A stretch of DNA of 64,000 bases, taken from contig NZ_CP016279.1 in assembly GCF_001542625.1 (NCBI RefSeq), positions 4,898,001-4,962,000 on the forward strand, written 5' to 3'. This DNA comes from Streptomyces griseochromogenes. GTDB taxonomy: Bacteria; Actinomycetota; Actinomycetes; Streptomycetales; Streptomycetaceae. The position numbers and the translations under genes are program-made. The notes under the pieces were generated by a model. It was given only the letters and a program-made list of their open reading frames with translations, was not told the origin of the DNA and made no database searches. Shown in pieces: positions 13,892 to 62,122 of the stretch (its first letter is position 1; each line of letters begins with the position of its first letter).

Positions 13892-15112
13892 ATGCGTTTT
13901 CCAGCCACAACGAGACGGCCGTTGCACGCGGCGTCGCTCCTGATCGTCCTGTCCGCCCTGCACGCCTCGGTCATCCTCCCCTCCCACCCCGCGCACGCGT
14001 ACAACGGGAGCACTTCGGCGTGCGCGCTCCGGGGGACAACGGGATACTCCGACGAGGGCCGACAGACCGACTACACACGGTTCCAGAACCCTGCCGGCAC
14101 CAAGCACGTGGCCGTGATCTACGTGGACTTCCCCGACGCCGCCGGCACGGCCCTGCCCCTGACCCCGTACTACAACCAGCTGTCGGGAGCCGCCGACTGG
14201 ATGTGGAACGCGTCCAACGGTAAGACGTGGCTCGACCTGAGGGCCCCGTACGGCAATTGGGTGCGCATGCCGAAGAACTCCACCGACTATGACTGGGAGC
14301 GTGGGTTCACCTGGGCCACGCACCAGACCTATGTGGAGGACGCGCTCACCGGCGCCGCCGGCGCGGGCGTCGACCTCTCCCAGTACGACATGTTCTATAT
14401 CGTGCCGACCGGCACCGCGGCCGCGATCGGTCACTCCCCGACCTTCGTCCAGGACCCGGCCCAGCCGACCCAGGTGTGGAACGGCGCGACCCGGAGCTGG
14501 GTGACGATCCACTGGGCGGTGACGTTCGGTCAGGACATGTGGCGCTGGGGCCACAAGGTCGCCGACCATGAGACCAGCCACACCTTCGGCCTGCCCGACC
14601 TCTACTCCTTCAGCGGCGATCAGAACCAATACGTCGGTGGTTGGGACCTCATGGGCCTGATCTCGGGTCCGGCGCCTCAGTATTTCGGCTGGGAGGCGTG
14701 GAAGTTCGGCTGGATCAGCGACTCCCAGGTCTCGTGCCTCTCTACGCCGGACACGTACTCCACGATCCTGAATGGTGTGGAATACGGAGGTAGCGGCTTC
14801 AAGCTGGCCGTGATCAAGACCAGCGGCACGACTGCCTATGTCGCCGAGTCCCGCAAGGCCGCGGGCAACGACTCCGGCGGCTGTGCCACCGGCGTCGTCA
14901 TCTACAAGGTCGACACCTCGACCGTCAGCGGCAGCGGGCCGATCCGGTTGGTCACCAACCCCGACGCAGCCGCCCCCACCGGGAACTGCACCTCACTGGA
15001 CATGCAGACCTGGAAGCCCGGCCAGTGGTTCGAGGACAGTGCTGCCCGCATCCGGATCTACGTGAACAGCTCCGACGCGTATACCGACACCGTCTGGACC
15101 TACAAGTGGTGA
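13892..15112 (+). CDS. Secreted M6-family zinc metalloprotease, copy 1
   Basis: 406 aa. A Sec signal peptide ends near residue 36 (SHPAHA). The zinc site is HETSH at residues 226-230 inside VADHETSHTFGLPDLY, followed by the GGWDLMG block at about 249-255 that marks immune-inhibitor-A/M6 domain proteins. Four conserved cysteines may form disulphides in the mature enzyme. The C-terminal half carries a beta-rich domain with YVAESRKA and CATGVVIYKVDTS, shared with the paralogue at 22135. The product should be an extracellular endopeptidase. It sits just upstream of an oligopeptide ABC importer, 235 bp away, which suggests a peptide-feeding role. Confidence 0.9.
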   Translation: MRFPATTRRPLHAASLLIVLSALHASVILPSHPAHAYNGSTSACALRGTTGYSDEGRQTDYTRFQNPAGTKHVAVIYVDFPDAAGTALPLTPYYNQLSGAADWMWNASNGKTWLDLRAPYGNWVRMPKNSTDYDWERGFTWATHQTYVEDALTGAAGAGVDLSQYDMFYIVPTGTAAAIGHSPTFVQDPAQPTQVWNGATRSWVTIHWAVTFGQDMWRWGHKVADHETSHTFGLPDLYSFSGDQNQYVGGWDLMGLISGPAPQYFGWEAWKFGWISDSQVSCLSTPDTYSTILNGVEYGGSGFKLAVIKTSGTTAYVAESRKAAGNDSGGCATGVVIYKVDTSTVSGSGPIRLVTNPDAAAPTGNCTSLDMQTWKPGQWFEDSAARIRIYVNSSDAYTDTVWTYKW

Positions 15113-15347
15113 CTGCGTAGCGCCGGCGCCTCCGGTCGGAAGGCGGTGTGGTCTGCGGGCCATGCGCCGGCCGCACCGCCCCTGCGTTCCTTCAACCGGC
15201 CTGAGCGGACGGCTTCATGCTGCCGGGATCAGCCTCCATAACCCGATGTTCTGGGGATCCAAGAGCTGGCCCTGAGGATCCACCGCCTTCACCCTTGACC
15301 CGACCCCAGTGAAATGTCACATCGTATAGCTAGCCAGAGGAGTCAGC

Positions 15348-17030
15348 GTGAGAGCACGACGTTCCAGGATGGTCATGGTCGCCGCCCTCGGGCTCGTCAC
15401 CGCCGCCGGCTGCGGGGGAGCCGGCGACGGCGATGCGCAGGGCGGACCCGCGAGCAAAGGGGGCACCCTTCACGTGCTCTCCAGCCTCGACCTGGAACAC
15501 CTCGACCCGGCCCGCAACTACGTCACCTCCTCCGAGGACGTCGGCCGCCTCATCTACCGGACGCTGACGACGTACGCGGCGGCACCCGGGGCTGCCGGAG
15601 GAAGGATCGTGCCGGATCTGGCGACGGACACCGGCCGCCCGAGCGATGGCGCCCGGACCTGGACCTTCACGCTCAAGGCGGGGGTGAAGTTCGAGGATGG
15701 GCGGCCCGTCACCAGCCGGGACGTCAGGTATGGGGTCGAGCGGTCGTTCGCCGCGGAACTTCCCGAAGGGCCGCCGTACGCGCGGATATGGCTTGCGGGG
15801 GGCCGGAGTTACAAGGGTCCCTACAAGGACGAGCACGGGCTGGCTTCGATCGAGACCCCGGACGACAGGACCATCGTCTTCAAGCTCAACCGCCCGGTGG
15901 CCGACTTCGGTTCCGCGGTGTCGCTGCCGATCTCCGCCCCGGTTCCGCAGGACAAGGACACCGGTGTCCGCTACGACAGCAGGCCCTTCTCTTCCGGTCC
16001 GTACAAGATCGGTACCTTCGAGCCCAAGAAGCGGCTCACCCTGGTCCGCAACACTCACTGGAATCCGGCCACCGACACGGTGCGCAAGGGCCTTCCGGAC
16101 AAGATCGTGATCGATCTCGACCTCGACCCGGCCGTCGTCGACCAGCGGCTCATCGCCGCGCAGGGAGCGGACGCGGACGCGGTCGCCTTCGAGCCGGTCG
16201 GGCCGGCTTCGGTCGGGCCGGTGATGGCCAACCCCGCGGTGCGCAAGCGGCTGGTCAACGGCGAGTCGATCAACACGCGGTACCTGAGCATCAACACCCG
16301 GCACAAGCCGCTCGACGACGTGCGGGTGCGGCAGGCGATCGCCTATGCGCTGGACAAGGAAGCCCTGCGCACCGCTCGGGGCGGCCCGATCGCCGGCCGA
16401 CTGGCCACCGCCCTGCTGCCGCCGTCGCTGCCCGGTTCCGTTTCCGACGATCCCTTCCCGAGCCCGGGAGGCAAGGGCGCTCCGGCCAAGGCCCAGGCGC
16501 TGCTGGCCCAGGCGGGCCACGCCTCGGGACTTGCCCTCACGCTCGACACCCCGGCCACCGCGGGCGGCCAGGCGCAGGGCGAGGCGGTGCAGGCGTCCCT
16601 GGCCAAGGCCGGGATCAAGGTGAAGATCAACGCGATCAGCTCGTCGGCGTTCTACAGCACAGTGGGGAACACCGCGCAGGAGCACGACTTGGTGATCGAC
16701 GGCTGGACACCCGACTGGCCGGGCGCCTCCACCTATCTGCCGCTCGTGTTCGACGGCCGGTTGATCACCCCCGAGGGCAACAACAACCATGCCCAGTACA
16801 ACTCCGCCAAGGTCAACGCCCGCATCGACGCGATCGCCAGGATGAAGGCCCCGACGGCCGCCGCGACCGCCTACGGCCAACTGGCCGGGCAGATCATGCG
16901 GGACGCGCCGGTCGTGCCGTTCCTGTGGGACAAGGCGGCCGTCCTCGTAGGGGCTCATGTCACCGGCGCCTACGGGCACATCGCCTACGTCGGACGACTG
17001 GATCTGGTCTCTCTGGGGCTGCGCAAGTGA
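15348..17030 (+). CDS. Oligopeptide/dipeptide ABC transporter substrate-binding lipoprotein
   Basis: 560 aa, SBP_bac_5 family. The lipobox is VTAAGC (Cys22), so the protein is anchored outside the membrane. Family landmarks follow: the N-terminal LDLEHLDPARNY, then WTFTLKAGVKFEDGRPVTSR near residue 105, FSSGPYKIGTFEPKKRLTLV near 215-235, RVRQAIAYALDKEAL near 325, and the C-terminal APVVPFLWDK. It captures peptides for the permeases encoded next. The start is GTG at 15348 with AGAGGA 8 nt upstream. The stop overlaps the next start (GTGA). Confidence 0.93.
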   Translation: MRARRSRMVMVAALGLVTAAGCGGAGDGDAQGGPASKGGTLHVLSSLDLEHLDPARNYVTSSEDVGRLIYRTLTTYAAAPGAAGGRIVPDLATDTGRPSDGARTWTFTLKAGVKFEDGRPVTSRDVRYGVERSFAAELPEGPPYARIWLAGGRSYKGPYKDEHGLASIETPDDRTIVFKLNRPVADFGSAVSLPISAPVPQDKDTGVRYDSRPFSSGPYKIGTFEPKKRLTLVRNTHWNPATDTVRKGLPDKIVIDLDLDPAVVDQRLIAAQGADADAVAFEPVGPASVGPVMANPAVRKRLVNGESINTRYLSINTRHKPLDDVRVRQAIAYALDKEALRTARGGPIAGRLATALLPPSLPGSVSDDPFPSPGGKGAPAKAQALLAQAGHASGLALTLDTPATAGGQAQGEAVQASLAKAGIKVKINAISSSAFYSTVGNTAQEHDLVIDGWTPDWPGASTYLPLVFDGRLITPEGNNNHAQYNSAKVNARIDAIARMKAPTAAATAYGQLAGQIMRDAPVVPFLWDKAAVLVGAHVTGAYGHIAYVGRLDLVSLGLRK

Positions 17031-17971
17031 CCGCCACCCTTCCCACCTCCCTGCCGTCCGAAGCGCCGGGCCGCGGCGGACCCCAAGAGACGTCTGTGCT
17101 GCGCCGACTGCTCGCCCAGCGCTCCGCCACGGTGGCGCTGGCGATGGTTGTGCTCCTGGTGCTCATCGCCCTCGCGGCCCCGCTGATCACCTGGGCCGCC
17201 GGCACGTCCCCGACCGAATTCCACTCCGAAGCGGTGGACTCGGCGCTCGGCGGGCTCCCGCGCGGCACCGCGGGCGGGATCAGCACCGCACACTGGCTGG
17301 GCGTCGAGCCCGGCAACGGCCGGGACATCCTCGCCCGCGTCGTCTACGGCGCCCGGATCTCGCTGCTGATCGCCCTGCTCGCCACCGCCCTGTCAGTGGC
17401 GCTCGGCACCGCGCTCGGGCTGGCCGCCGGGTTCTTCGGCGGCTGGACCGACATGGTCGTCGGCAGGCTGATGGACCTGCTCATGTCCTTTCCCGCCCTC
17501 ATCTTCATGATCGCGCTGATCTCCGCGGCACCGGGTGTGAACCGGCAGCTGCTGCTGGTGATCGTGCTCGGCTTCTTCGGCTGGCCGTACGTCGGGCGGA
17601 TCGTGCGCGGGCAGGCGATGGTGCTGGCCCGGGGCGAGTTCGTGGCCGCGGCCCGGGTACTGGGTGCCTCCCGGCGCGCACTGCTGGTGCGGGAGGTGCT
17701 GCCCAACCTGAGCGGGCCCATCCTCGTGGTGGCGACCATGTCGATCCCCGGCTATGTCGCGACCGAGGCGGGCCTGTCCTTCCTCGGCATCGGAGTTCGC
17801 CCGCCGACCCCCTCCTGGGGCCAGATGATCGCCACCGCGGTGCCGTGGTACGCCGCCGACCCCGTCTACTTCCTCGTCCCCGGCGCCTTCCTGTTCGTCA
17901 CCGTGCTCGCCTTCAACGTGCTCGGTGACGCGGTACGGGACGCGCTCGACCCCCGGAGCCGTCACCGATGA
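17027..17971 (+). CDS. Peptide ABC transporter permease, DppC/OppC type
   Basis: 314 aa. After a short cytoplasmic N-terminus there is a first transmembrane helix (VALAMVVLLVLIALAAPLI), a periplasmic loop containing HWLGVEPGNGRDILARVVYG, then five more helices. The EAA loop that docks on the ATPase reads FVAAARVLGASRRALLVREV, followed by LPN. The order of loops and the GTDxxGRD-like block are typical of the OppC subunit. The GTG at 17027 overlaps the stop of the binding-protein gene by 4 bp, giving translational coupling. In this operon OppC precedes OppB, the reverse of the common order. Confidence 0.93.
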   Translation: MTATLPTSLPSEAPGRGGPQETSVLRRLLAQRSATVALAMVVLLVLIALAAPLITWAAGTSPTEFHSEAVDSALGGLPRGTAGGISTAHWLGVEPGNGRDILARVVYGARISLLIALLATALSVALGTALGLAAGFFGGWTDMVVGRLMDLLMSFPALIFMIALISAAPGVNRQLLLVIVLGFFGWPYVGRIVRGQAMVLARGEFVAAARVLGASRRALLVREVLPNLSGPILVVATMSIPGYVATEAGLSFLGIGVRPPTPSWGQMIATAVPWYAADPVYFLVPGAFLFVTVLAFNVLGDAVRDALDPRSRHR

Positions 17972-18960
17972 TCCTCTATGTCCTGCGCAGACTGGCCGCG
18001 ACGACGGCGATCCTGCTGGTGATCTGCGCAGCCACCTTCGCGATCTTCTATCTGATGCCCGCCGACCCCGCGCAGGGTGCCTGCGGCAAGGCATGCAGCC
18101 CGGAGCGGATCGCCCAGATCCGCACCACGCTCGGCCTGAACCACTCGGTGTTCGTGCAGTTTCGCGACTATCTCGTCGGCATCGTGGCCGGCCGCAGCTA
18201 CGGCACGGGAGCGCGGGCCGTGCACTGCCCCGCCCCGTGCCTGGGATTCAGCTTTCAGACCGATCAGCCGGTGTGGCGGATGCTCACGGACCGGCTGCCG
18301 GTCAGCGTCTCCATTGCCATGGGCGCGGCAGCGCTGTGGCTGATCGTCGGCGTCACGGCCGGGGCGATCTCCGCTCTGCGCCGCGGCAGCCTGTGGGACC
18401 GGGCGGCGATGACGGCGGCGCTGGGGGGCGTCTCGCTCCCGGTGTACTTCACCGCCCTCGTGCTGCAGTACCTGCTCGTCGTCAAGCTCGGACTGCTGCC
18501 CTATCCGCAGGCGATCGCGCTCACTGCGGACCCGGTCGGCTGGGCTCAGTCCATGGTCATGCCGTGGATCACGCTGGCGATGCTCTACGCCGGGATCTAC
18601 GCGCGGATGACCCGGGGCGAGATGCTCGACAGTCTCGGCCAGAACTATGTCCGCACCGCCCGCGCCAAGGGGCTGCCCGAGTCGGCTGTGCTGCGCCGCC
18701 ATGCGCTGCGGCCGGCGCTGATGCCCATCGTGACGATCTTCGGCATGGACCTCGGCGCGCTGCTCGGCGGCGCCCTCATCACCGAGTCGGTCTTCGGCCT
18801 GCCCGGCGTGGGCAAGCTCGCGGCCGACGCGATCAACAGCGCCGACCAGCCGGTGATCCTCGGCGTGACGCTCTTCGCCGCGGCGTTCGTCGTGCTCGCC
18901 AACGTCGCGGTGGACCTGGTCTACGCACTCCTGGACCCGAGAGTGAGGGCCGTGGGATGA
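17968..18960 (+). CDS. Peptide ABC transporter permease, DppB/OppB type
   Basis: 330 aa. The N-terminus has the OppB pattern: ILYVLRRLAATTAILLVICA, then LMPADPAQ and the LGLNHSVFVQFRDYL segment, before the core helices. The EAA loop is VRTARAKGLPESAVLRRHAL. The periplasmic first loop is longer than usual and holds four cysteines (GACGKAC and CPAPC), which may form disulphides; I have not seen this in typical DppB. It overlaps the upstream OppC gene (ATGA at 17968) and the downstream ATPase gene (ATGA at 18957). Confidence 0.92.
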   Translation: MILYVLRRLAATTAILLVICAATFAIFYLMPADPAQGACGKACSPERIAQIRTTLGLNHSVFVQFRDYLVGIVAGRSYGTGARAVHCPAPCLGFSFQTDQPVWRMLTDRLPVSVSIAMGAAALWLIVGVTAGAISALRRGSLWDRAAMTAALGGVSLPVYFTALVLQYLLVVKLGLLPYPQAIALTADPVGWAQSMVMPWITLAMLYAGIYARMTRGEMLDSLGQNYVRTARAKGLPESAVLRRHALRPALMPIVTIFGMDLGALLGGALITESVFGLPGVGKLAADAINSADQPVILGVTLFAAAFVVLANVAVDLVYALLDPRVRAVG

Positions 18961-19778
18961 CCCTGCTGACCGTACGCGACCTGACCGTGGACTTCTCGGG
19001 CGGCATACGCGCCGTCGACAGCATGGACCTGGACCTGGCCGCCGGGACGGTGCTCGGCGTGGTGGGTGAGTCGGGCAGCGGCAAGTCCGTGACGAGCCTG
19101 GCCATCATGGGCCTGTTGCCGGATGCTCGGATCACGGGTGAAGTCCGGTTCGACGGGCATCAGTTGATCGGCCTGGACGGGCGGGCGCTGCGCCGGCTGC
19201 GCGGAGACCGGATCGCGATGATCTTCCAGGATCCGCTGTCCTCCCTGAACCCCTACTACTCGGTGGGCTTCCAGATCGCCGAAGCCTATCGCGCGCACCG
19301 CCGGGCGGGGCGTCACGAGGGGCACCGGATCGCGGTGAGCATGCTGGACCGGGTCGGCATTCCCGAACCCGAACGGCGCGCCCGCGCGTACCCGCACGAG
19401 TTCTCCGGCGGTATGCGCCAGCGCGTGATGATCGCGATGGCCCTGTGTCTGGAGCCCGACCTGCTCATCGCCGACGAACCGACCACCGCGCTCGACGTCA
19501 CCGTGCAGGCCCAGATCCTGGACCTGCTGCGAGAGCTACGGGAGCGGTCCGGCACCGCCATCATGCTCATCACCCACGACATGGGCGTGGTCGCGGGACT
19601 GGCCGACGACGTCGTCGTGATGTACGGCGGCCGCGCGGTCGAGCGGGGCACGGTCCGCGAGGTGTTCTATCGCCCGCGCGACACCTACACCAAGGGCCTG
19701 CTCGCCTGCGTACCACGCGTCGACGGGCCATTGCCCGACCGTCTGCCCACCTTGTCGGCACCGGAGGAGACGGTGTGA
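18957..19778 (+). CDS. Peptide ABC transporter ATPase, DppD/OppD type
   Basis: 273 aa. Walker A GESGSGKS at about residues 36-43, Q-loop [14 protein letters not shown], signature FSGGMRQR, Walker [13 protein letters not shown] and the H-loop ITHDMGVV are all intact. The C-terminal oligopeptide extension is short: it ends soon after [12 protein letters not shown] and lacks the Cys-rich segment, which is present in the next ATPase. It should form a heterodimer with that subunit under the two permeases. ATGA overlap with OppB; the stop overlaps the GTG of the next gene. Confidence 0.93.
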
Positions 19779-20812
19779 GTCCCATGAATTCGGCGAGTCC
19801 CGTGAATCCACCGCTGCTCGAAGCACGCGACCTGGTCAAGCAGTTCCCCGTACGGCACGGCCTGACCCGGCGGCTCGCCGGACGCGTCAGGGCAGTTGAC
19901 GGTGTGTCGCTACGGGTGGACGCGGGGGAGACGCTGGGCCTGGTCGGCGAGTCCGGCTGCGGCAAGTCCACGGTGGCCCGGCTGCTGACCCGGCTCATCG
20001 AGCCCACCTCGGGCACGATCTGCGTGGCAGGAAGGGAACTGTCCTCACTGAGTGAGCAGTTGATGCGGCCGGTACGCCGCGACCTGCAAATGATCTTCCA
20101 GGATCCCTTCTCCTCGCTCAACCCCCGCCAGACCGTCCGCCAGATCCTGACGGCCCCCTACCGCTACCAGGGGCTGACCCCCGACGAACCGGTGGAGCAG
20201 CTGCTGGAGCGAGTGGGCCTGCGGCCGGAGCACGCCGCCCGCTACCCCTACGAGTTCTCCGGCGGCCAGGCTCAGCGCATCGGGATCGCCCGGGCGCTGG
20301 CGCTGCGGCCGAGACTGGTGGTGTGCGACGAGCCCGTCACGGCGCTCGACGTGCGGGTCCAGGCGCAGATCCTCAACCTGCTCAAGGATCTGCAGCAGGA
20401 GTACGGGCTCGCCTACGTGTTCATCGCGCACGACCTCGGCGCGGTCCGCCAGATCAGCACGCGCGTCGCCGTGATGTACCTGGGCACGGTCGTGGAAACG
20501 GCCGACCGCGACACCCTCTACGGCCGGGCCGCCCACCCCTATACCCACGCCCTGCTCTCCGCCGTACCGCTGCCCGACCCGGACACCGAACGGACCCGCG
20601 AGCGGATCGTCCTCCACGGCGACCTGCCCAGTCCGCTCGCCCCGCCCAGCGGCTGCCCGTTCCGCACCCGCTGTCCCAAGGCGGCCGACCGCTGTGCCGC
20701 CGAACGGCCCGCGCTGCACGCGATCGCCGCGGGCCACGAGGTCGCCTGCCACTACCCGGAGCCGCTGACCCGGCCGTGTGCCGCGCCGGTCGCCGAGGAA
20801 AGGACCTCATGA
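19775..20812 (+). CDS. Peptide ABC transporter ATPase, DppF/OppF type
   Basis: 345 aa. It has Walker A GESGCGKS, Q-loop MIFQDPFSSLNPRQ, signature FSGGQAQR, Walker B LVVCDEPVTALD and H-loop IAHDLGAV. The oligopeptide-transporter C-terminal extension is complete, with PSGCPFRTRCPKAADRC, the Cys motif that binds an iron-sulphur cluster in some OppD/F proteins. The GTG at 19775 lies 6 nt after GGAGGA and overlaps the previous stop. Its own stop overlaps the aminopeptidase start by ATGA, which ties uptake directly to peptide cleavage. Confidence 0.93.
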   Translation: MSPMNSASPVNPPLLEARDLVKQFPVRHGLTRRLAGRVRAVDGVSLRVDAGETLGLVGESGCGKSTVARLLTRLIEPTSGTICVAGRELSSLSEQLMRPVRRDLQMIFQDPFSSLNPRQTVRQILTAPYRYQGLTPDEPVEQLLERVGLRPEHAARYPYEFSGGQAQRIGIARALALRPRLVVCDEPVTALDVRVQAQILNLLKDLQQEYGLAYVFIAHDLGAVRQISTRVAVMYLGTVVETADRDTLYGRAAHPYTHALLSAVPLPDPDTERTRERIVLHGDLPSPLAPPSGCPFRTRCPKAADRCAAERPALHAIAAGHEVACHYPEPLTRPCAAPVAEERTS

Positions 20813-22089
20813 GCCGCAGCTACCGCCTGCCCGGACTCGCCGTCACCGACCACACCTTCACCGCGCCGCTCGACCACACCGACCCCGCGGGTACCTCGAT
20901 CCAGGTCTTCGCCCGGGAGGTGTCCGACCCGGCCCGCGCCGGCGAACGACTGCCCTGGCTGCTGTACCTGCAGGGCGGACCCGGAGGCAAGTCGCCGAGG
21001 CCACCGAACGCGACCACCGGGTGGCTCGCCCATGCCATCAAGACCCATCGGGTGCTGCTGCTGGACCAACGTGGCACCGGCCGCAGCACCCCGGTCACGG
21101 CCCGGTCGGTCGGCCAGTTCCCCGATGCCGGGGAACTGGCCGACCGCCTCGCCCTCTTGCGCGCGGACTCGATCGTCGCCGACGCTGAGCTGATCCGGCG
21201 TCAGCTGTGCGGTGACGAGCCCTGGGAGACGGTCGGCCAGAGCTATGGCGGCTTCATCACCCTCACCTACCTGTCCCAGGCCCCCGAAGGACTGCGTGCC
21301 TGCTACATCACCGGCGGCCTGCCCGGCCTGGACGCCACCGCCGATGACGTCTACGCGGCCACATATCCCCGGGTCAGAGAGAAGGTGAGCGCCTTCTACG
21401 CCCGTTACCCCGGTGACCGCGAACTGGTCCGGCGGATCGCCGGCCTGCTTGATCGCCAGTCGGTACGGCTGCCCGACGGTGACCGGCTCACCGTCCGGCG
21501 GCTGCGTACGCTCGGCTTGATGCTGGGCATGGGCGACGGAGCCGAGCGGCTGCACTGGCTGCTGGATGAAGCCCTCGGCGCCGACGGTCATCTCTCGGCG
21601 ACCTTCCTGTATCAGCTGATGAACGTGACCGGGTTCGTCGACAACCCGCTCTTCGCCGTGCTGCAGGAATCGATCTTCGCGCAGGGCGGCAGGCCCACCG
21701 GCTGGGCCGCCGCCCGCGCGATCGCCGGACGCCCGGAGTTCGCCGAGGACGCCGACCCGCTGCAGTTCACCGGCGAGATGTTCTATCCCTGGATGTTCGA
21801 GGAGATCGCAGGACTGCGGCCGTTCCGCGAAGCTGTGCAGCTGCTGGCCGAGCGAGCCGACTGGCCCGCGCTGTACGACCCGTCGCGGCTGGCGGCCAAC
21901 CAGGTTCCGGTGGCCGCGGCGGTCTACCACGACGACATGTACGTGCCCACGGAGTTGTCCCTGGCGACCGCGCGCTCGGTCGGTGCGCTGCGCGCCTGGG
22001 TCACCAACGAGTGGGAGCACGACGGGGTGACTGCGTCCGGCGCGGGTGTGCTGTCCCGCCTGATGGACATGGCCGCCGGACGGGCCTGA
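20809..22089 (+). CDS. S33-family alpha/beta-hydrolase, proline iminopeptidase-like
   Basis: 426 aa with no signal peptide, so cytoplasmic. The oxyanion-hole motif is LYLQGGPGG (residues about 52-60), followed by LLLDQRGTGRST, and the nucleophile elbow GQSYGG places the catalytic Ser at about 145. A large helical cap domain follows, and the C-terminal VAAAVYHDDMYVP and NEWEHDG supply the candidate Asp and His. This is the length and pattern of the large S33 prolyl aminopeptidases/tripeptidyl-type enzymes of actinobacteria. Translationally coupled to the ABC ATPase, it should trim imported peptides. Confidence 0.9.
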   Translation: MSRSYRLPGLAVTDHTFTAPLDHTDPAGTSIQVFAREVSDPARAGERLPWLLYLQGGPGGKSPRPPNATTGWLAHAIKTHRVLLLDQRGTGRSTPVTARSVGQFPDAGELADRLALLRADSIVADAELIRRQLCGDEPWETVGQSYGGFITLTYLSQAPEGLRACYITGGLPGLDATADDVYAATYPRVREKVSAFYARYPGDRELVRRIAGLLDRQSVRLPDGDRLTVRRLRTLGLMLGMGDGAERLHWLLDEALGADGHLSATFLYQLMNVTGFVDNPLFAVLQESIFAQGGRPTGWAAARAIAGRPEFAEDADPLQFTGEMFYPWMFEEIAGLRPFREAVQLLAERADWPALYDPSRLAANQVPVAAAVYHDDMYVPTELSLATARSVGALRAWVTNEWEHDGVTASGAGVLSRLMDMAAGRA

Positions 22090-22134
22090 CGTTCCCGCGC
22101 CAACCCGACCCGATCGAAGAAGAGTTGAGGAGAC

Positions 22135-23337
22135 ATGTCCGGATCCATCAAGAGTCTCAGAGCCCTTGCCGCGGGTGCCGCCGCGACGGCGTTGCTGTCG
22201 CTCACCGCCACGGCCCCGAGCGCGCACGCCGCACCGGAAGCGGCGCACGAACCCGCTCCGCCCACCGACTGCGCCCTGCCCGGCAGGACCGGCTGGACGG
22301 ACGAGGGTCACGCCACCGACTACACCCAGTTCCAGCGACCCCTTGGCACCAAGCACGTGCTCATGCTGTTCGTCGACTTCCCCGACGCCCAAGCCTCCGG
22401 TTCCACGTCCGGCTACTACCGGCAACTGGCCCCGGCCGCCGACTGGATGAAGCGCGACTCCTACGGACGGACCCGGCTGGACATCACCCCGCTCAACCGG
22501 TGGATACGGATGCCGCAGGATTCGACCGGCTACGGCTTCCAGCGCGGGATCACCTTCGAGCAGCATGAGTTGTACGTCCGGCAGGCGGTGGCAGCGTCGG
22601 ACCCGTACGCCGACTTCTCCCGGTACGACATGATCTACATCGTCCCGGCGAAGTCCGCGTCCGCGATCAGCTTCTCGCCGACGTACCTGTACGACCCCAC
22701 CACCGCAGGCATCACCGCCGACGGCAAGCGCGTCAAATGGGCGGTGACCTTCGGCCAGGACATGTGGCACTGGGGCTACAAGGTCGCCGACCATGAGACC
22801 AGCCACACCTTCGGCCTGCCCGATCTCTACGCGTTCACCGGCACCGACTACCACCACTTCGTCCGCGGCTGGGACCTCATGGGCAACATCGCCGGGCCCG
22901 CCCCGCAGCACGTCGGCTGGGAGCGGTGGAAGTTCGGCTGGATCGACGACCGCCAGGTCGCCTGCCTGCCCTCGACAGGAAGCCGCACGGTCCGCCTCAA
23001 GGCGGTCGAAAGCCCTGGCGGAACGAAGATCGCGGTGGTCCGCACCGGCGAGACCACCGCCTACGTCGCCGAGTCCCGCAAGGCCGTCGGCGCGGACAGC
23101 CACGCCTGTTCCACCGGCGTACTCATCTACAAGGTGGACTCCTCCGTCCAGACCGGCGACGGCCCGATCCAGATCGTGAACGGCAACCCCGGCGCCATCC
23201 CGCCCTCGGGCTGCCAGGACCTGGACATGGCGGCTTTCCGTACCGGGCAGTCCTTCAGCGACCCCGCCACAGGAGTCCGGATCGACGTCGACAGCAGCGG
23301 TCCTCTCCACGACGAGGTCACGATCACCAAGCACTGA
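22135..23337 (+). CDS. Secreted M6-family zinc metalloprotease, copy 2
   Basis: 400 aa, clearly paralogous to the gene at 13892. The signal peptide ends near residue 32 (APSAHA). The zinc motif HETSH lies at residues 220-224 in VADHETSHTFGLPDLY, then RGWDLMG, WKFGWIDD and the C-terminal YVAESRKA and CSTGVLIYKVDSS blocks also match copy 1. The pre-domain loops differ from copy 1, so cleavage preference may differ. It starts 45 bp after the aminopeptidase with GAGGAG about 6 nt before the ATG, and a perfect hairpin spans its stop codon. It is therefore the last gene of the peptide-utilisation operon. Confidence 0.92.
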   Translation: MSGSIKSLRALAAGAAATALLSLTATAPSAHAAPEAAHEPAPPTDCALPGRTGWTDEGHATDYTQFQRPLGTKHVLMLFVDFPDAQASGSTSGYYRQLAPAADWMKRDSYGRTRLDITPLNRWIRMPQDSTGYGFQRGITFEQHELYVRQAVAASDPYADFSRYDMIYIVPAKSASAISFSPTYLYDPTTAGITADGKRVKWAVTFGQDMWHWGYKVADHETSHTFGLPDLYAFTGTDYHHFVRGWDLMGNIAGPAPQHVGWERWKFGWIDDRQVACLPSTGSRTVRLKAVESPGGTKIAVVRTGETTAYVAESRKAVGADSHACSTGVLIYKVDSSVQTGDGPIQIVNGNPGAIPPSGCQDLDMAAFRTGQSFSDPATGVRIDVDSSGPLHDEVTITKH

Positions 23338-23354
23338 CCGCCCCCCGGCGGTCA
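23335..23354. terminator. Terminator of the M6/ABC/aminopeptidase operon
   Basis: TGACCGCC-CCCC-GGCGGTCA, a perfect 8-bp stem whose left arm includes the stop codon of the second M6 gene. It lies between convergent genes and can serve both directions. Confidence 0.75.
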
Positions 23355-23467
23355 CGACGCCCTGCGGGCAAGCACATCCCAGACGCCTTCCTCGGTGACA
23401 CCGAAGGCGGTGTCAGCGCCCGCAGAGCGGGGATCGTCCGTCGGCGCAGCCGGTTCCGCCGGGCGGC

Positions 23468-24433
23468 TCACTCCGGCAGGCGCGGCGACTCCGGATGGCG
23501 TTCGCGCCACCGCGCGTAGGCGGGAATGGCGGCGCAGGTGGCACGGTACCCCTGCGCGACCCTGCGGACGATCTCCTCGCCGTGTGCGGCCACCGGTCCG
23601 TCCCGCCGCCAGCCGAGCACGTGCCGGTACCAGAGCGGATCGCCGGCGAGCGGACGCACCGTGACGCCGGGCACCTCGATGAAGGTCGCCTGGCAGAGGC
23701 TGACGGCCAGGCCCGCCCGGATGATGTCGATCAGCTGTCGGCCTTCCGCCTCGTAGGGGGTGCACGGCTGCCGGCCCATCAAGGAGAAGACGGACGCCCA
23801 GTACTCCCGGGTGCGGTCGCTGTCCGGGTGGGGCATGGCCCAGTCCTCTTCGATGAGGTCCGTCAGGTTCGCTTCCTCGTGATCGGCCAGCGGGTGCGTG
23901 GACGGGAGCAGGGCGAACACGGGCTCGGTGACGACCGGTCGCAGTACGACTCCTTCGCGCGGCGGGAGCTCGTGGCCGGGGTTGTCGCCGAGGACCGCCG
24001 CCTCCAGGCGTCCCGCCGCGAGGTCGTCCAGCAGCGGCGACGGGGAGTACTGGCATCGTGTCGTCACCTCCGAGCCGGGGACCAGCTCCCGTGTCGCCAC
24101 GATGAGGTCGGCCAGCAGCGGCGCGCCCACCGATCCGAGGCGGACGCGGCCGGGTGCGGTGCCACAGCGGGCGGCGCGGGCGGTGTCGGCCAGCAGATCG
24201 TCGATGCCCGGCAGGATGGCCCGCGCCCGGGTGAGCACCAGCTCGCCCAATACGGTTGGCACGGCACCGGCCTGTCCACGGTCGAAGATCGGTCCGCCCA
24301 GCAGGGCCTCGATGCGCCGTAGCTGGGCGCTGAGTCCGGGCTGGGTCATGCACAGCGATGCGGCGGCGCGGGTCAGACTTCCGGCCTCCGCGATCGCGCA
24401 GATCACTCGCAGGTGCCGTACCTCCAGATCCAT
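23468..24433 (-). CDS. LysR-family transcriptional regulator
   Basis: 321 aa. The N-terminal winged helix is canonical: MDLEVRHLRVICAIAEAGSL, then RAAASLCMTQPGLSAQLRRI with the recognition helix, followed by the linker helix and a periplasmic-binding-protein-like effector domain from about residue 95. The C-terminus is longer than average, by about 20 residues. It faces away from a truncated aldehyde dehydrogenase across a 99-bp gap that holds a dyad, so its original target was probably that gene. It is convergent with the M6/ABC operon and could have acquired another role, but nothing shows that. Confidence 0.9.
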   Translation of the reverse strand: MDLEVRHLRVICAIAEAGSLTRAAASLCMTQPGLSAQLRRIEALLGGPIFDRGQAGAVPTVLGELVLTRARAILPGIDDLLADTARAARCGTAPGRVRLGSVGAPLLADLIVATRELVPGSEVTTRCQYSPSPLLDDLAAGRLEAAVLGDNPGHELPPREGVVLRPVVTEPVFALLPSTHPLADHEEANLTDLIEEDWAMPHPDSDRTREYWASVFSLMGRQPCTPYEAEGRQLIDIIRAGLAVSLCQATFIEVPGVTVRPLAGDPLWYRHVLGWRRDGPVAAHGEEIVRRVAQGYRATCAAIPAYARWRERHPESPRLPE

Positions 24434-24477: not shown

Positions 24478-24503
24478 GACATCACAGTCCTATATGAAAT
24501 GTC
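24478..24503. promoter_or_regulatory. LysR operator candidate
   Basis: GACAT (24478-24482) and ATGTC (24499-24503) form an interrupted dyad in the 99-bp gap between the divergent LysR and aldehyde dehydrogenase genes. The AT-rich centre (TATATGAA) is unusual here and may overlap a -10 box. Confidence 0.4.
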
Positions 24504-24532
24504 ACACGTGATCTGAGATCGCGCTCGTTACG

Positions 24533-24892
24533 GTGCCGGCCGTCGTCCCCACCGTCAGTAATCCGGCAGACCTTTCCGATGTCCTGGTGCGGATCCCGGC
24601 CCCCGGCACCACCACCGCGATCCACGCGGTGGAACGAGCCCGTGCTGCCCAGCCCGGCTGGCTCACCGGCGGTGCGACCGCACGCTCTGCGGCACTCACC
24701 GCGATCGTCCAGGCCGTCGAGGCCGCCGCCGAAGAGCTGTCGGTACTCGCCGTACGTGAAGTGGGCAAGCCGCTCGCCGAAGCGCGGGCCGAGGCGGCAC
24801 GCACCGCCGCGATCTGGCGCTACTACGCCCAGACTCCCTTCGAGCCCTCCGGCGCGGTACACGAAACGGCAGGCGGCCCGGTGCTGTTGCTG
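24533..24892 (+). pseudogene. Aldehyde dehydrogenase N-terminal fragment
   Basis: The first 120 codons read like the N-terminus of an NAD-dependent aldehyde dehydrogenase: VRIPAPGTTTAIHAVERARA, AAQPGWLTGGATARSAALTA, then VREVGKPLAEARAEAARTAA. The frame then loses homology near 24895, well before the NAD-binding and catalytic Cys regions of a protein normally about 480 aa long. The catalytic domain is missing, so the gene is dead. It diverges from the LysR gene, the usual arrangement for a regulator and its target. Confidence 0.75.
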
Positions 24893-24895
24893 ACC

Positions 24896-25862
24896 CGGCG
24901 CCGCCCTCGACCCGCTGCGCGAGGCCCTGGCCGAGTCCCTGCGCCCGCGACCGAGTGGACGAGGCGCGCCCTTGTACGGGCGCGAAGTCGGCCGTCCCCC
25001 TCATCGGCAATGCACGTCTGCCAGGCTCGCGCGCTGAACGCGATGGGAACAGCGAGTCCTGCGGCGTGGGCGACCGGAGCTGGTACGTCAGCTTGTCGTG
25101 CGCCGTCAGGTTTGCAGCCTGCGGCCCGTGATGACGGCGGCAGCGACCATCAGGGAATAGCCGGTCAGCTCGCCGACCGCGCAGATGTGACGGGCGTTCC
25201 CTCTGGGTGCGGCAGGCGCCGCCGGACGGCAGTTGATCGACATTGCCGTCGGGGTGGACGTAGCACTTCAAGTACGTGCCGTGGCTGCCCTGTTGGCGGT
25301 CCTGGTAGGCGATGGAGCCGACACCCTCCTTGCCGAAGGCGACCAGCCTGGCGGGTGACGCGTAGACGGCGCTTACGGCGAGCGCGATCGACGCCAACGT
25401 GTAGCAGTCAGGGCAGCCGGCAGCAAGACCAGGAGCCACCCGATGATCATGCGGCTCCGGGCGGAGCCGGCGGTCCGCTCAAATCGCCGGAATGCGTTGT
25501 CGCCACACCACGAGGGCCTCATCCGGGCCACCGCCTGCGGGTCGTGACCCACCGGCTCACCACCGATCGAACCCATCGGCACCGGCGGGTTCGGCCAGGT
25601 CCGGAAGGCACACGACCCCAACGTCGGTGGCAACGACGGGTGGTTCGGCGCACTCGGCAGACTGGTGGGACGTCAGGCTGAACACCAATCACAACGTGGG
25701 GCTCTACCGGACGCCGTGGACCAACGACAAGGACATCCACAACGACCTTCACCACGTACCGTCGCTATTTCACCGATCTGCTGGAACATCCGGCTGCTTG
25801 CGCTGGCGAGAGCGATGTGTGGGTATAGGTCAAGCTGACGATGTGTGGAGAGAGGTGACGGG
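24896..25862. other. About 970 bp of decayed sequence
   Basis: Follows the break in the aldehyde dehydrogenase fragment. On the minus strand two neighbouring frames look like one broken membrane-protein gene: MIIGWLLVLLPAALTATRWR near 25445-25390, then in another frame LASIALAVSAVYASPARLVA and YQDRQQGSHGTYLKCYVHPD down to about 25240. I cannot name it. The remainder up to 25850 has no supportable gene. Confidence 0.4.
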
Positions 25863-59490: not shown

Positions 59491-59961
59491 ATCTGGGGCT
59501 GGCACTTGAACCGGTGGTCCGAGCAGGACTGGCACCGTGCCGCCCCTGCGTGCGCACGCCGCCCTGGGGCAGGAGTGGGCCCACGGGCCGCGCAGGGACC
59601 GTGCGGTACTGATCGGCGTTCTGCGGCAGGGGCTGCGCCTGGCCCGCGACTTAAACCTCGTCGAGCTGGGCTGGCTCACCGAAGCCGCCTTCTCCTACGT
59701 CGGGGACTCCGTGTGGGGGCCGCTTCTTCCAACAGCTGGGCGAGCTGACCGTCACGCACTAGAAGATCTCGCCGGGCCTGAGCCAGATCGCCGGCTGCGG
59801 CTTGCGCCCACCGTCACCCCGCACGGAATTGCGCAGCAGAGTCTCCTCCACTCGTAAAGCGGGAGTTAAGTAGGTATCCGTGGTTCGACATCACGGATGG
59901 GTAACACCCCAGTCTCGGGCCTAAGTTCGAAGCACGGCCAAGCGTGCTGTGTCCCCGAGGT

Positions 59962-59995
59962 CGTACGGTGCCAGAACAAGCTTCCGCACCGTACG
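59962..59995. repeat. Inverted repeat 1 upstream of the subtilase gene
   Basis: CGTACGGTGC (59962-59971) and its exact complement at 59986-59995, with a 14-nt loop. Possible operator or hairpin. Confidence 0.45.
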
Positions 59996-60019
59996 GCCGC
60001 GGCACGCAGGGCGCGGCTC

Positions 60020-60059
60020 GCGTGTTCATCGTCTCTGGCGACGCGGGGCATGAACACGC
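60020..60059. repeat. Inverted repeat 2 upstream of the subtilase gene
   Basis: GCGTGTTCAT (60020-60029) and its exact complement ATGAACACGC (60050-60059), with a 20-nt spacer, 150 bp before the start codon. Confidence 0.45.
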
Positions 60060-60208
60060 CCACTCGGTGGGGTCACGGTCATCCCTGTCCGCCGGCAACG
60101 GCGGAGGCCCAACCGAACCGAGGCGGCAGGAGTCGTCCCAGGCTCGACAGCACCGTCAGTCAACCCGGCTTCGGCATGCCCGGAGCCGATCCGCTCGAAA
60201 GGCAGACA

Positions 60209-62122
60209 GTGAATCCGCATCGCAAATCCCGGCGGGGTCGAATACTCGTCGCCACGGCGCTCGGCACCACGCTCCTTGTCGGCGCCGTGACCACCGCCAT
60301 GGCCGGGCAGGGCTCCTCCGGGTCCGGCAATTCCGCCTCCCCCGTGTTGCCGAAGTCAGCGCCGACGGCCTCAGAGCCGGTGTCCGACCTGGTCATCGGT
60401 TACAAGTCGAAGGCGCAGGAGGCGCATTCTGAGACGGCGGTACGCGCGGGAATCAGCGCAGCGGCCGCGAAGACCGGCCTGAAGCTGTCGTACGAGCGCC
60501 GTCTGAGCGTCGGTGCGGCTCTGGTGAGCCTGGGCGGAGCACAACCCGCCAAGGACGTCACCAAGCTCATGGACCATTTCCGCGCCGATCCGGACGTGGC
60601 CTACGCCGTTCCGAACGGCCACATGCAGGCGCAGTCCGTCACGTCGCCCAATGACCCGCGCTTTGCCGAACAGTGGGACCTGACCGAACCCACGGCAGGC
60701 ATGAACGTGCAGGATGCCTGGGGCACCACCACGGGCAAGGGTGTGACGGTCGCAGTGCTGGACGACGGCATCGCCAAGCATTCCGACTTGGATGCCAACG
60801 TCATCCAAGGGGCCGACCTCGTCTCTAACACGTTCACGGCGAACGACGGCGACGGCCGCGACGACGACCCCTCCGACCCGGGTGACGGGGTCAAGAAGGG
60901 TGAGTGCGGCAAGGACCTCGGCGGGAAACCGTTGCGGCCCGAGGACGAGCCCTCCAGCTGGCACGGTACCCACATGGCGGGCATCATCGCCGCCCCGTCC
61001 GACAACGGCAACGGGATCGCGGGCGTCGCACCCGGGGCCAAGCTGGAGCCTGTACGGGTGCTCGGGCGTTGCGGCGGGAACGACGCCGACATCAGCGACG
61101 GAATCATGTGGGCCGCGGGCGAACACGTCGACGGCGTCTCCGACAACCAGACTCCCGCCAACGTCATCAACATGAGTCTGGGGAGTAAAGGCGATTGCAG
61201 CCCAATCGTGCAGTCCGCCATCGACAAGGCCGTCCAGCTCGGTAGCACGGTCGTCGTTGCCGCTGGTAACCGCGGCAAGGAGCCCGCGCCGGTGGACGCC
61301 AGCCAGTTCACCCCGGCCAACTGCAAGAACATCATCACCGTGGCCGCCGCCGATCGCGAGGGCAACAGGGCCGAGTACTCCAACTTCGGCCAGGTGGACA
61401 TCACGGCTCCCGGAGGTGACATCAGGAAGAACGACGGGGACGGCATCCTCTCCACGTTCAACTCCGGCACCGGCGCCCCCGCTGCCGAGAACTTCGCGTT
61501 CGAAGTGGGCACCAGCCAGGCCACCGCGCACGTCTCCGGGCTCGTCGCCCTGATGCTCTCGGCGAACCCCGAGCTGACGCCCGCAGAGATCAAGACGGCC
61601 ATCCAGGCCAACGCGCGACCGATTCCCGGCAAGTGCGACGGTGGTTGCGGCGCAGGGCTTGCCGACGCCGCCAAGACGGTCGCGGCCGCCGCGAAGGGCG
61701 TCCCGGGGTCTGGCTCGCCCTCGGACTCCGCCTCGGGCTCCCCGTCGGACTCTCCGTCGGACTCCGCGTCGGATTCCCCGTCGGACGCGCCCGCGTCGCC
61801 TGACGCCCCGCCCACTACGTCCGCGCCGTCGGACGGGTCCGGATCCGAAGGGGCGGGGGCCGGCACGGACCTCAGCGCCTGCCTCCACGACTCCTGCCAG
61901 GTCGAGGTGACCGGCGGGGACACGATCCAGCTCGACGGCGCCGACGGAGTGGACGAGCTCGAGATCAACAGCGTCTCCGCCAACGCGGTGGACATGACGG
62001 GTGCGTCCGGCAGCGGCTCTCAGAGCGCCAAGCAGTCCGCCCCAGGCACCTCACAGCTCAACAACCTCGTGGTCGACATCATCAAGGTCGACGGCGACCG
62101 GGCGACCATCCGCCTTTCCTGA
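60209..62122 (+). CDS. Secreted S8 (subtilisin-like) serine protease
   Basis: 637 aa. The Sec signal ends near residue 32 (TTAMA). An I9-type inhibitor prodomain lies at about 58-140 (LVIGYKSKAQ to AYAVPNG). The triad is Asp185 (VAVLDDG), His252 (WHGTHMAG) and Ser436 (GTSQATAHVSG), with oxyanion Asn354 (AAGN). The Ser motif is odd: families read GTSMA-x-PHV, here GTSQATAHV, so Met and Pro are replaced. A low-complexity Ser/Pro/Asp linker (about 500-550) leads to a 90-residue C-terminal domain with one Cys pair (CLHDSC). Start GTG 60209 with GAAAGG upstream. The FHA gene follows 27 bp later. Confidence 0.9.
   Translation: MNPHRKSRRGRILVATALGTTLLVGAVTTAMAGQGSSGSGNSASPVLPKSAPTASEPVSDLVIGYKSKAQEAHSETAVRAGISAAAAKTGLKLSYERRLSVGAALVSLGGAQPAKDVTKLMDHFRADPDVAYAVPNGHMQAQSVTSPNDPRFAEQWDLTEPTAGMNVQDAWGTTTGKGVTVAVLDDGIAKHSDLDANVIQGADLVSNTFTANDGDGRDDDPSDPGDGVKKGECGKDLGGKPLRPEDEPSSWHGTHMAGIIAAPSDNGNGIAGVAPGAKLEPVRVLGRCGGNDADISDGIMWAAGEHVDGVSDNQTPANVINMSLGSKGDCSPIVQSAIDKAVQLGSTVVVAAGNRGKEPAPVDASQFTPANCKNIITVAAADREGNRAEYSNFGQVDITAPGGDIRKNDGDGILSTFNSGTGAPAAENFAFEVGTSQATAHVSGLVALMLSANPELTPAEIKTAIQANARPIPGKCDGGCGAGLADAAKTVAAAAKGVPGSGSPSDSASGSPSDSPSDSASDSPSDAPASPDAPPTTSAPSDGSGSEGAGAGTDLSACLHDSCQVEVTGGDTIQLDGADGVDELEINSVSANAVDMTGASGSGSQSAKQSAPGTSQLNNLVVDIIKVDGDRATIRLS

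Follow-up and report, generated by a model that had tools for sequence, protein, structure and literature searches.

A 64,000-nucleotide stretch of the Streptomyces griseochromogenes genome (contig NZ_CP016279.1, positions 4,898,001 to 4,962,000; hereafter the window), which belongs to a 10.76-Mb genome on one contig, carries a locus encoding two secreted M6-family peptidases, an Opp-type peptide importer, an S33 hydrolase and a LysR-family regulator. This locus reads best as the acquisition arm of a HypR-controlled collagen/hydroxyproline (Hyp)-peptide regulon, an interpretation to which we give a probability of about 0.78. Four elements of this picture are directly observed, namely the gene content, the linkage in relatives, the operator-like sites, and a separate Hyp cluster in the same genome with its own GntR gene. 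The features of the locus are as follows (SBP, the peptide-binding lipoprotein; ALDH, aldehyde dehydrogenase; pLDDT, predicted local distance difference test).

13892..15112 (+): M6a, secreted M6-family zinc peptidase, paralogue of M6b and an accessory part (TIGR03296; 53% identity to M6b)
15237..15253 (no strand): LysR-type box CATAAC-N5-GTTCTG, a T-N11-A dyad with one right-arm mismatch (pattern scan)
15310..15320 (+): HypR-type candidate operator TGAAATGTCAC, 27 bp 5' of the SBP start codon (pattern scan)
15348..17030 (+): SBP, family-5 peptide-binding lipoprotein (PF00496, 3e-70; lipobox by eye)
17027..17971 (+): OppC-type permease (PF00528, PF12911)
17968..18960 (+): OppB-type permease (PF19300, PF00528; trees)
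18957..19778 (+): OppD-type ATPase (PF00005; top NCBIfam model OppD, 3.6e-100, under cut-off)
19775..20812 (+): OppF-type ATPase (PF00005, PF08352)
20809..22089 (+): S33 alpha/beta hydrolase, prolyl-aminopeptidase-like (solved relative 8jgn, E 2.9e-109; aligned motifs)
22135..23337 (+): M6b, secreted M6-family zinc peptidase, the conserved S33-linked copy (TIGR03296; model pLDDT 87)
23328..23362 (+): hairpin 3' of M6b, possible terminator without a T run (-15.1 kcal/mol, z -3.5)
23468..24433 (-): LysR-family regulator (NCBIfam scan; 42 of 75 related loci hold a LysR at least 44% identical)
24495..24505 (+): second HypR-type candidate site TGAAATGTCAC, flanked by LysR and the ALDH remnant (pattern scan)
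24560..24895 (+): truncated ALDH, residues 11-122 of 459 (76% identity to the ALDH of related locus L009; PF00171 N-terminus only)

In the proposed mechanism, the secreted M6 peptidases would cut Hyp- and Pro-rich protein, most likely gelatin or collagen fragments released by the M9 collagenase of the genome, with plant Hyp-rich glycoproteins as a possible substrate. The resulting peptides would be imported by SBP and OppBCDF, after which the S33 enzyme, taken as cytoplasmic because no signal peptide was seen by eye, would free N-terminal Pro or Hyp, a task for which many relatives would add an M24 Xaa-Pro peptidase. Hyp would then be epimerised, oxidised, deaminated and oxidised again to alpha-ketoglutarate by a pathway encoded elsewhere in the genome. 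A HypR-type GntR regulator would keep the SBP operon and the promoter of LysR repressed as long as Hyp is not in use, and LysR would contribute a further signal, probably an activating one, via the box at 15237-15253. We infer the protein roles from family membership and the substrate from linkage together with operator-like sites, and likewise infer the direction of import, the binding of the regulator and the role of LysR.

The use of free Hyp by Streptomyces, the Hyp pathway, HypR and the link to an M9 peptidase are already known; what appears new is the protein-cutting and peptide-import arm. In the excerpt of the Streptomyces coelicolor account available here (PMC6608401, to which this limit applies throughout), the genes are SCO6289-SCO6294, and a mutant deleted for the epimerase gene cannot grow on L-Hyp. 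That regulon shares with the present system the same kinds of Hyp genes except ALDH and M24, a GntR regulator, the operators TACAATGTCAC and TGC(A/C)ATGTCAC, and an extracellular peptidase (M9, SCO5912) under the same repressor. It differs in that the excerpt names no M6, S33 or LysR gene and leaves the kind of transporter SCO6295 unstated (PMC6608401), whereas relatives of the window hold M6, Opp, S33 and LysR genes together with Hyp genes and sites. No published description of the M6/Opp/S33 arm was found in the open-licence literature, where the acquisition of Hyp from protein by Streptomyces has so far been described only as far as a putative M9 collagenase. The locus thus offers a testable chain from protein to alpha-ketoglutarate, gives a substrate hypothesis to an uncharacterised M6 subfamily and to a particular Opp importer, and presents operator-like sites on which a known regulator can be tried.

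Within the window, five 4-bp overlaps chain the six genes SBP-OppC-OppB-OppD-OppF-S33, with M6b set off by 45 bp, a gap of 235 bp between M6a and SBP, and LysR placed tail to tail with M6b. An earlier note, made from the letters of this DNA, had described seven head-to-tail genes with a second M6 gene 235 bp upstream and a terminator after M6b. The five overlap positions that it gave are exact, the single strand and the upstream gene agree with the open reading frame (ORF) coordinates, and the hairpin is real; the overlaps, however, join only six genes, and the hairpin lacks the T run. Pfam and NCBIfam scans bear out the families that it assigned (M6, SBP, permeases, ATPases and S33), and its combination of protease, peptide importer and aminopeptidase is supported. 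LysR (23468-24433, minus strand), the ALDH remnant and the operator-like sites had been missed. The importer matches SBP_bac_5, two BPD_transp_1 domains and two ATPases, with oligo_HPY under cut-off in OppD and the Opp proteins scoring under the NCBIfam equivalog cut-offs.

Linkage to hydroxyproline genes in relatives

A scan of genome contigs with M6b yielded 75 loci on 67 contigs (L-numbers denote fetched loci or stretches), onto which the genes of the locus were mapped by tblastn; the word patterns of the M6b scan reach close relatives only. The nearest named loci come mostly from Streptomyces. S33 is present in 42 of these loci, an Opp gene at 45% identity or more in 55, and LysR in 42. 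Arrangement I, in which SBP-C-B-D-F-S33-M6 run in one direction as in the window, occurs in 17 of the 75 loci, from Streptomyces, Streptantibioticus, Kitasatospora, Nonomuraea and a Saccharothrix metagenome-assembled genome, so that the gene order is kept beyond close strains, as the earlier note had proposed to check. LysR stands divergently upstream of SBP in 8 of the 17 (in two pieces in L078) and downstream in 9. Arrangement II, assigned by script where SBP or a close OppF lies on the strand opposite to M6, begins with LysR (-) and M6 (+), continues with F-D-B-C-SBP on the opposite strand and is completed by Hyp genes and S33-M6; it accounts for 38 loci, a number that counts some genomes twice because the 75 loci sit on 67 contigs (seven contigs were fetched as two overlapping halves). 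The S33-M6 pair is retained in both arrangements.

Clusters of ORFs shared among the 75 loci identified the partner genes, which encode DAO (ThiO/DadA-like), a 2Fe-2S protein, a SoxA-like oxidoreductase, a DHDPS-like protein, a proline-racemase-family protein (HypE), ALDH, a GntR regulator and an M24 Xaa-Pro peptidase. In L009, the best NCBIfam model for the proline-racemase-family protein is 4-hydroxyproline epimerase (354.9 bits, under the cut-off of 376), and that for ALDH is alpha-ketoglutaric semialdehyde dehydrogenase (359 bits, under the cut-off of 770). At least two of DAO, SOXA, DHDPS and HypE lie beside M6 in 43 of the 75 loci, including 33 of 38 in arrangement II and 7 of 20 in loci of neither arrangement. 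The earlier description of the locus as self-contained therefore does not hold, as relatives couple it to Hyp catabolism and HypR-type operators, and general peptide scavenging is too vague a description of it.

The S. griseochromogenes genome itself holds an ordered Hyp set with a GntR gene at 3.68 Mb, away from the locus. The GntR/FCD protein beside this cluster is 67% identical to the locus GntR of L009 and has an exact TGCCATGTCAC alongside; by family, position and operator it qualifies as the predicted HypR orthologue. In the window, the truncated ALDH reads as the remnant of a lost Hyp cluster, and similar remnants occur elsewhere (DAO in L012, ALDH in L014). Because of this ALDH remnant, the window suggests that an acquisition arm can retain operator-like sites after the catabolic genes have left the locus. 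The open frame at 24533-25681 begins as ALDH, of which only the first quarter is left, and runs into unrelated sequence.

Across the family, M6 is patchy (29 of 297 genomes at E <= 1e-85), and in the class it reaches 26 of 246 genomes at E <= 1e-40, with 47% identity attained only by the genome itself and one other. A Hyp epimerase (E <= 1e-90) is present in all 29 M6-positive genomes, versus 231 of 297 overall, as found by reading two listings against each other. The hypergeometric P for this co-presence is 4.5e-4, uncorrected for kinship, with 27 of the 29 genomes coming from two genera. The listed epimerase lies within 13 kb of M6 in 8 of the 29 genomes, and in genus g116, where one is listed, it lies elsewhere.

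Twelve Hyp stretches (L131-L142) were picked from the strongest epimerase matches, L137 and L140 for having M6 too; being hand-chosen, they are no random sample. Among the ten without M6, all five Opp genes stand beside the Hyp genes in L135 and L136, SBP lies near a contig end in L134, S33 is close by in L139, and an exact TACAATGTCAC is found in eight. In other families, the stretches L085-L087 carry Opp-S33-M24 without M6; L086 has four Hyp genes and L087 one, and L085 has, of Hyp-related genes, GntR only within the stretch. A second epimerase-like match, 38-39% identical, stands beside the first in L135 (8405), L136 (8590) and L056, and is possibly another proline-racemase-family enzyme.

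Candidate HypR and LysR operators

In S. coelicolor, the Hyp-utilisation repressor HypR binds TACAATGTCAC, TGCAATGTCAC and TGCCATGTCAC, as determined by footprint or electrophoretic mobility shift assay (PMC6608401). In the 75 loci, exact TACAATGTCAC is matched 18 times, and every one of these matches lies upstream of the locus GntR (0.02 on average and at most 2 for permuted patterns); this GntR is therefore taken as HypR-like. Exact TGCMATGTCAC has 15 matches, 14 of them upstream of genes (S33 11, SBP 2, DHDPS 1), against a permuted mean of 0.41, yet one permuted pattern reached 15. The wider TGMMATGTCAC gives 60 strand matches, 57 of them upstream (LysR 25, S33 13, SBP 11, DHDPS 7, M6b 1), whereas 300 permuted patterns average 0.53 with a maximum of 9. 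Since four palindromic positions are counted twice and L042 and L070 share one place, these matches correspond to 55 places, 52 of them upstream; two of the remaining three fall at the N-terminal end of the DHDPS match and one is unrelated.

Of the two TGAAATGTCAC sites of the window, the first precedes SBP and the second lies in the gap that separates LysR from the ALDH remnant. With the pattern TGNMATGTCAC, 2 matches are observed in the window versus 0.16 expected (2 of 100 shuffles reach 2), and 12 in the genome versus 0 for the reversed pattern. One genome match is an exact TGCCATGTCAC between the epimerase and GntR genes, and 4 of the 12 sites are placed near Hyp-related or locus genes, namely the two in the window, the one at hypR and, weakly, one in L127. 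In L010, the published TGCAATGTCAC occupies the place aligned with the first window site at SBP, and a site at a window-like place upstream of LysR also occurs in L008-L012. In a set of 19 stretches (L131-L142, L085-L087, L130, and L046, L056 and L069 from the 75 loci), the looser TNNMATGTCAC has 22 matches (permuted mean 0.9, maximum 18), with L132 and L134 among those having none.

In L127 (2005-4077, minus strand), from the same genome, the HypR-like site TGACATGTCAC lies about 125 bp upstream of the start of a gene whose 690-residue product looks secreted. This product has Ig and InhA-like MAM matches, no peptidase-domain match, and a sedolisin-like appearance by eye only.

Boxes of LysR regulators typically take the form T-N11-A. 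The dyad CATAAC-N5-GTTATG occurs with one mismatch at 15237-15253, where it is a predicted LysR operator. The full dyad pattern is found in 8 of the 75 loci and lies over the start codon of the divergent LysR in L015, L019, L020, L056 and L069; in the window, LysR is displaced by about 8 kb from the box, while the box stays at SBP. Its core, GATGTTMTGG, has 25 matches, 21 of them within 120 bp of TGMMATGTCA (permuted controls 1.06 for the count and 0.03 for proximity, with maxima of 22 and 2). It may also be LysR rather than HypR that uses the TGAAATGTCAC sites. The Streptomyces snapalysin gene likewise has a divergent LysR regulator, and it resembles arrangement II in placing a secreted metalloprotease beside such a regulator; it differs in that snapalysin belongs to M7, not M6, and is not known to be accompanied by importer or Hyp genes.

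Counter-evidence and rival explanations

A number of observations weigh against a Hyp-dedicated acquisition arm. As to linkage, 8 of the 75 M6 loci lack any partner gene (L035, L039 and L067 are on short or cut contigs), at least two of the four Hyp enzymes accompany M6 in only 3 of the 17 arrangement I loci, and the window has no intact Hyp gene, the epimerase, D-Hyp dehydrogenase and deaminase being absent and ALDH truncated. Five of the ten M6-less Hyp clusters (L131, L132, L138, L141 and L142) have no close Opp or S33 gene, and L133 has an OppF fragment only. The closest S33 relatives outside the locus, L083 and L084, are without any Opp, M6 or Hyp gene over 16 kb, and the S33 loci L088-L090, L093 and L094 have no Hyp genes; S33 by itself is thus no marker of Hyp use, as seven S33 loci without this Opp lack Hyp genes. 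As to regulation, the TGAAATGTCAC sites differ by one base from the published TGCAATGTCAC, the exact published operators match nowhere in the window, the wider pattern was chosen after the sites of the window had been seen, and two one-mismatch HypR candidates were unbound in S. coelicolor (PMC6608401). Furthermore, M6a has no HypR-type site upstream, TNNMATGTCAC is absent from L056, L069, L085 and L087, the L086 site lies far from the operon, and Embleya lacks TGMMATGTCAC, its lone TACAATGTCAC lying far from S33 and M6.

If the locus served general peptide scavenging, M6 would cut any protein and the importer would take up any peptide, independently of Hyp. The broad range that Opp importers can have is compatible with such a role, as are the absence of an intact Hyp gene and of an exact published operator from the window. 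In addition, an M6 peptidase ranks first by spectral counts in the secretome of feather-grown Streptomyces, according to the part of that study available (PMC7693968). Set against these points, relatives show Hyp gene linkage and HypR-type operators, and neither S33 nor Hyp genes accompany the Opp paralogues L113 and L114 of the S. griseochromogenes genome, so that scavenging appears unlikely.

Two further roles are very improbable, as catabolic linkage, HypR-type operators and patchy presence count against both. In a defensive role, M6 would destroy antimicrobial peptides ahead of import and final degradation; the M6 family does include the immune inhibitor A of Bacillus, whereas immunity or resistance genes were not seen by eye in the 30 most shared ORF clusters (a defence library was not searched). 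Equally hard to credit is uptake of a developmental or signalling peptide as by BldK, with M6 maturing the signal, even though signals of this kind do enter S. coelicolor through Opp importers, as stated in the available portion of PMC10067837.

Under the favoured reading of a Hyp-peptide regulon, M9 bears on the identity of the protein source. The M9 collagenase promoter of S. coelicolor is HypR-bound and derepressed in a hypR mutant (PMC6608401). The single M9 collagenase match of the S. griseochromogenes genome lies away from the locus (L129), and its gene has TGCTATGTCAC, with one mismatch, 90 bp before the ATG; this site is suggestive only, because a quarter of shuffles would be expected to yield one match. 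A variant whose odds lie within those of the favoured reading takes plant cell-wall Hyp-rich glycoprotein (extensin), not collagen, as the Hyp source. Plant and algal cell walls do contain Hyp (PMC6608401), and the variant is nonetheless doubtful in view of the S. coelicolor M9 promoter and, with the same reservation about shuffles, the site at the M9 gene of this genome. One further point stands against a collagenolytic M6: the studied M6 peptidase PrtV digests gelatin and not the collagenase substrate FALGPA, as given in the accessible part of PMC2613228, and an M6 gelatinase acting after an M9 collagenase is for this reason the modest reading.

Enzymes and importer lineages

The two M6 proteins of the window, 400 and 406 residues long and with signal peptides read by eye, barely pass TIGR03296 (111.3 and 118.3 bits for the M6 proteins versus a cut-off of 110.8). 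Neither has a Pfam match, to an M9 domain or otherwise; no sequence match to the window M6 proteins was found in the PDB, even by profile. The HExxHxxGxxD motif is invariant in 14 aligned M6 sequences and likewise in 32, both sets including the window pair, and the genome has seven M6-domain matches, five above cut-off. The pair thus resembles M6 peptidases such as immune inhibitor A and PrtV in motif, signal peptide and TIGR03296 match, and departs from them in its short length, its position next to an importer and the lack of a PDB match.

A fixed pair of M6 genes was rejected as a constant feature of arrangement I, an M6a-type gene or fragment being present in just 7 of 17 loci. In the close relative L008 (2710-2979), M6a is seen only as a C-terminal piece, and for that reason may be on its way out in this lineage. 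Four OppB cysteines that had been singled out are present, and were dropped as a special trait since they are ordinary among six OppB paralogues of the same genome, which carry, in the first 110 aligned residues, four in L097, L098 and L099, two in L096 and L100, and none in L101. Neither M6a nor the OppB cysteines define the system.

The nearest PDB relative of the S33 protein is Arabidopsis At3g61540 (8jgn), with which GQSxGG aligns, together with Glu, Asp and His at the presumed cap and triad places; prolyl aminopeptidase models score it far under cut-off, though these motifs align. It shares with the prolyl aminopeptidases of MEROPS S33 (Serratia PAP and At3g61540) the alpha/beta-hydrolase family, GxSxG and the aligned Glu, and differs in sitting in an import operon, its activity being predicted. 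A review, available in part, associates Serratia PAP with peptides rich in Pro and Hyp, for instance those of collagen, and, through the title of a reference it cites, credits the enzyme with high activity for acetylated Hyp (PMC9147577).

The importer agrees with OppABCDF and BldK in having one SBP, two permeases and two ATPases, and differs from them in that its operon ends in S33 and M6, its promoter carries a HypR-type site and its proteins fall under the equivalog cut-offs. S33 of arrangements I and II forms one group in the tree (92/90). The arrangement I OppB clusters with that of Opp-S33 loci from other families (99/95; 96/93 in a second tree). The approximately unbiased (AU) test does not reject a clade uniting I and II (p 0.19 for OppB, 0.26 for OppC); importer exchange between the two is therefore only suggested, by the OppB tree, the OppC data favouring neither side. 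In Embleya (L130), the Opp that accompanies DAO to GntR, S33 and M6b is of different gene order and lineage, and no LysR lies in the stretch. The AU test rejects a clade uniting I, II and Embleya (p 9.5e-6, the Embleya row being flagged as long-branched) as well as one of II with Embleya (p 0.0017), which indicates, as far as the trees go, that in Embleya this neighbourhood acquired an unrelated Opp lineage. A single importer origin is rejected only once Embleya is included.

A broader claim, which we advance tentatively and at less than even odds, is that the short M6 peptidases may be an unrecognised class specialised for Hyp-rich protein such as gelatin, collagen or extensin, with a dedicated Hyp-peptide importer that actinobacteria would have put together at least twice out of different Opp lineages, jointly under HypR repression and LysR control.

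Carriage of the locus on plasmids was considered and set aside, with a single record, a 3.1-Mb Embleya replicon. Elsewhere in the window, a large subtilase-family (S8) gene occupies 59897-62122.

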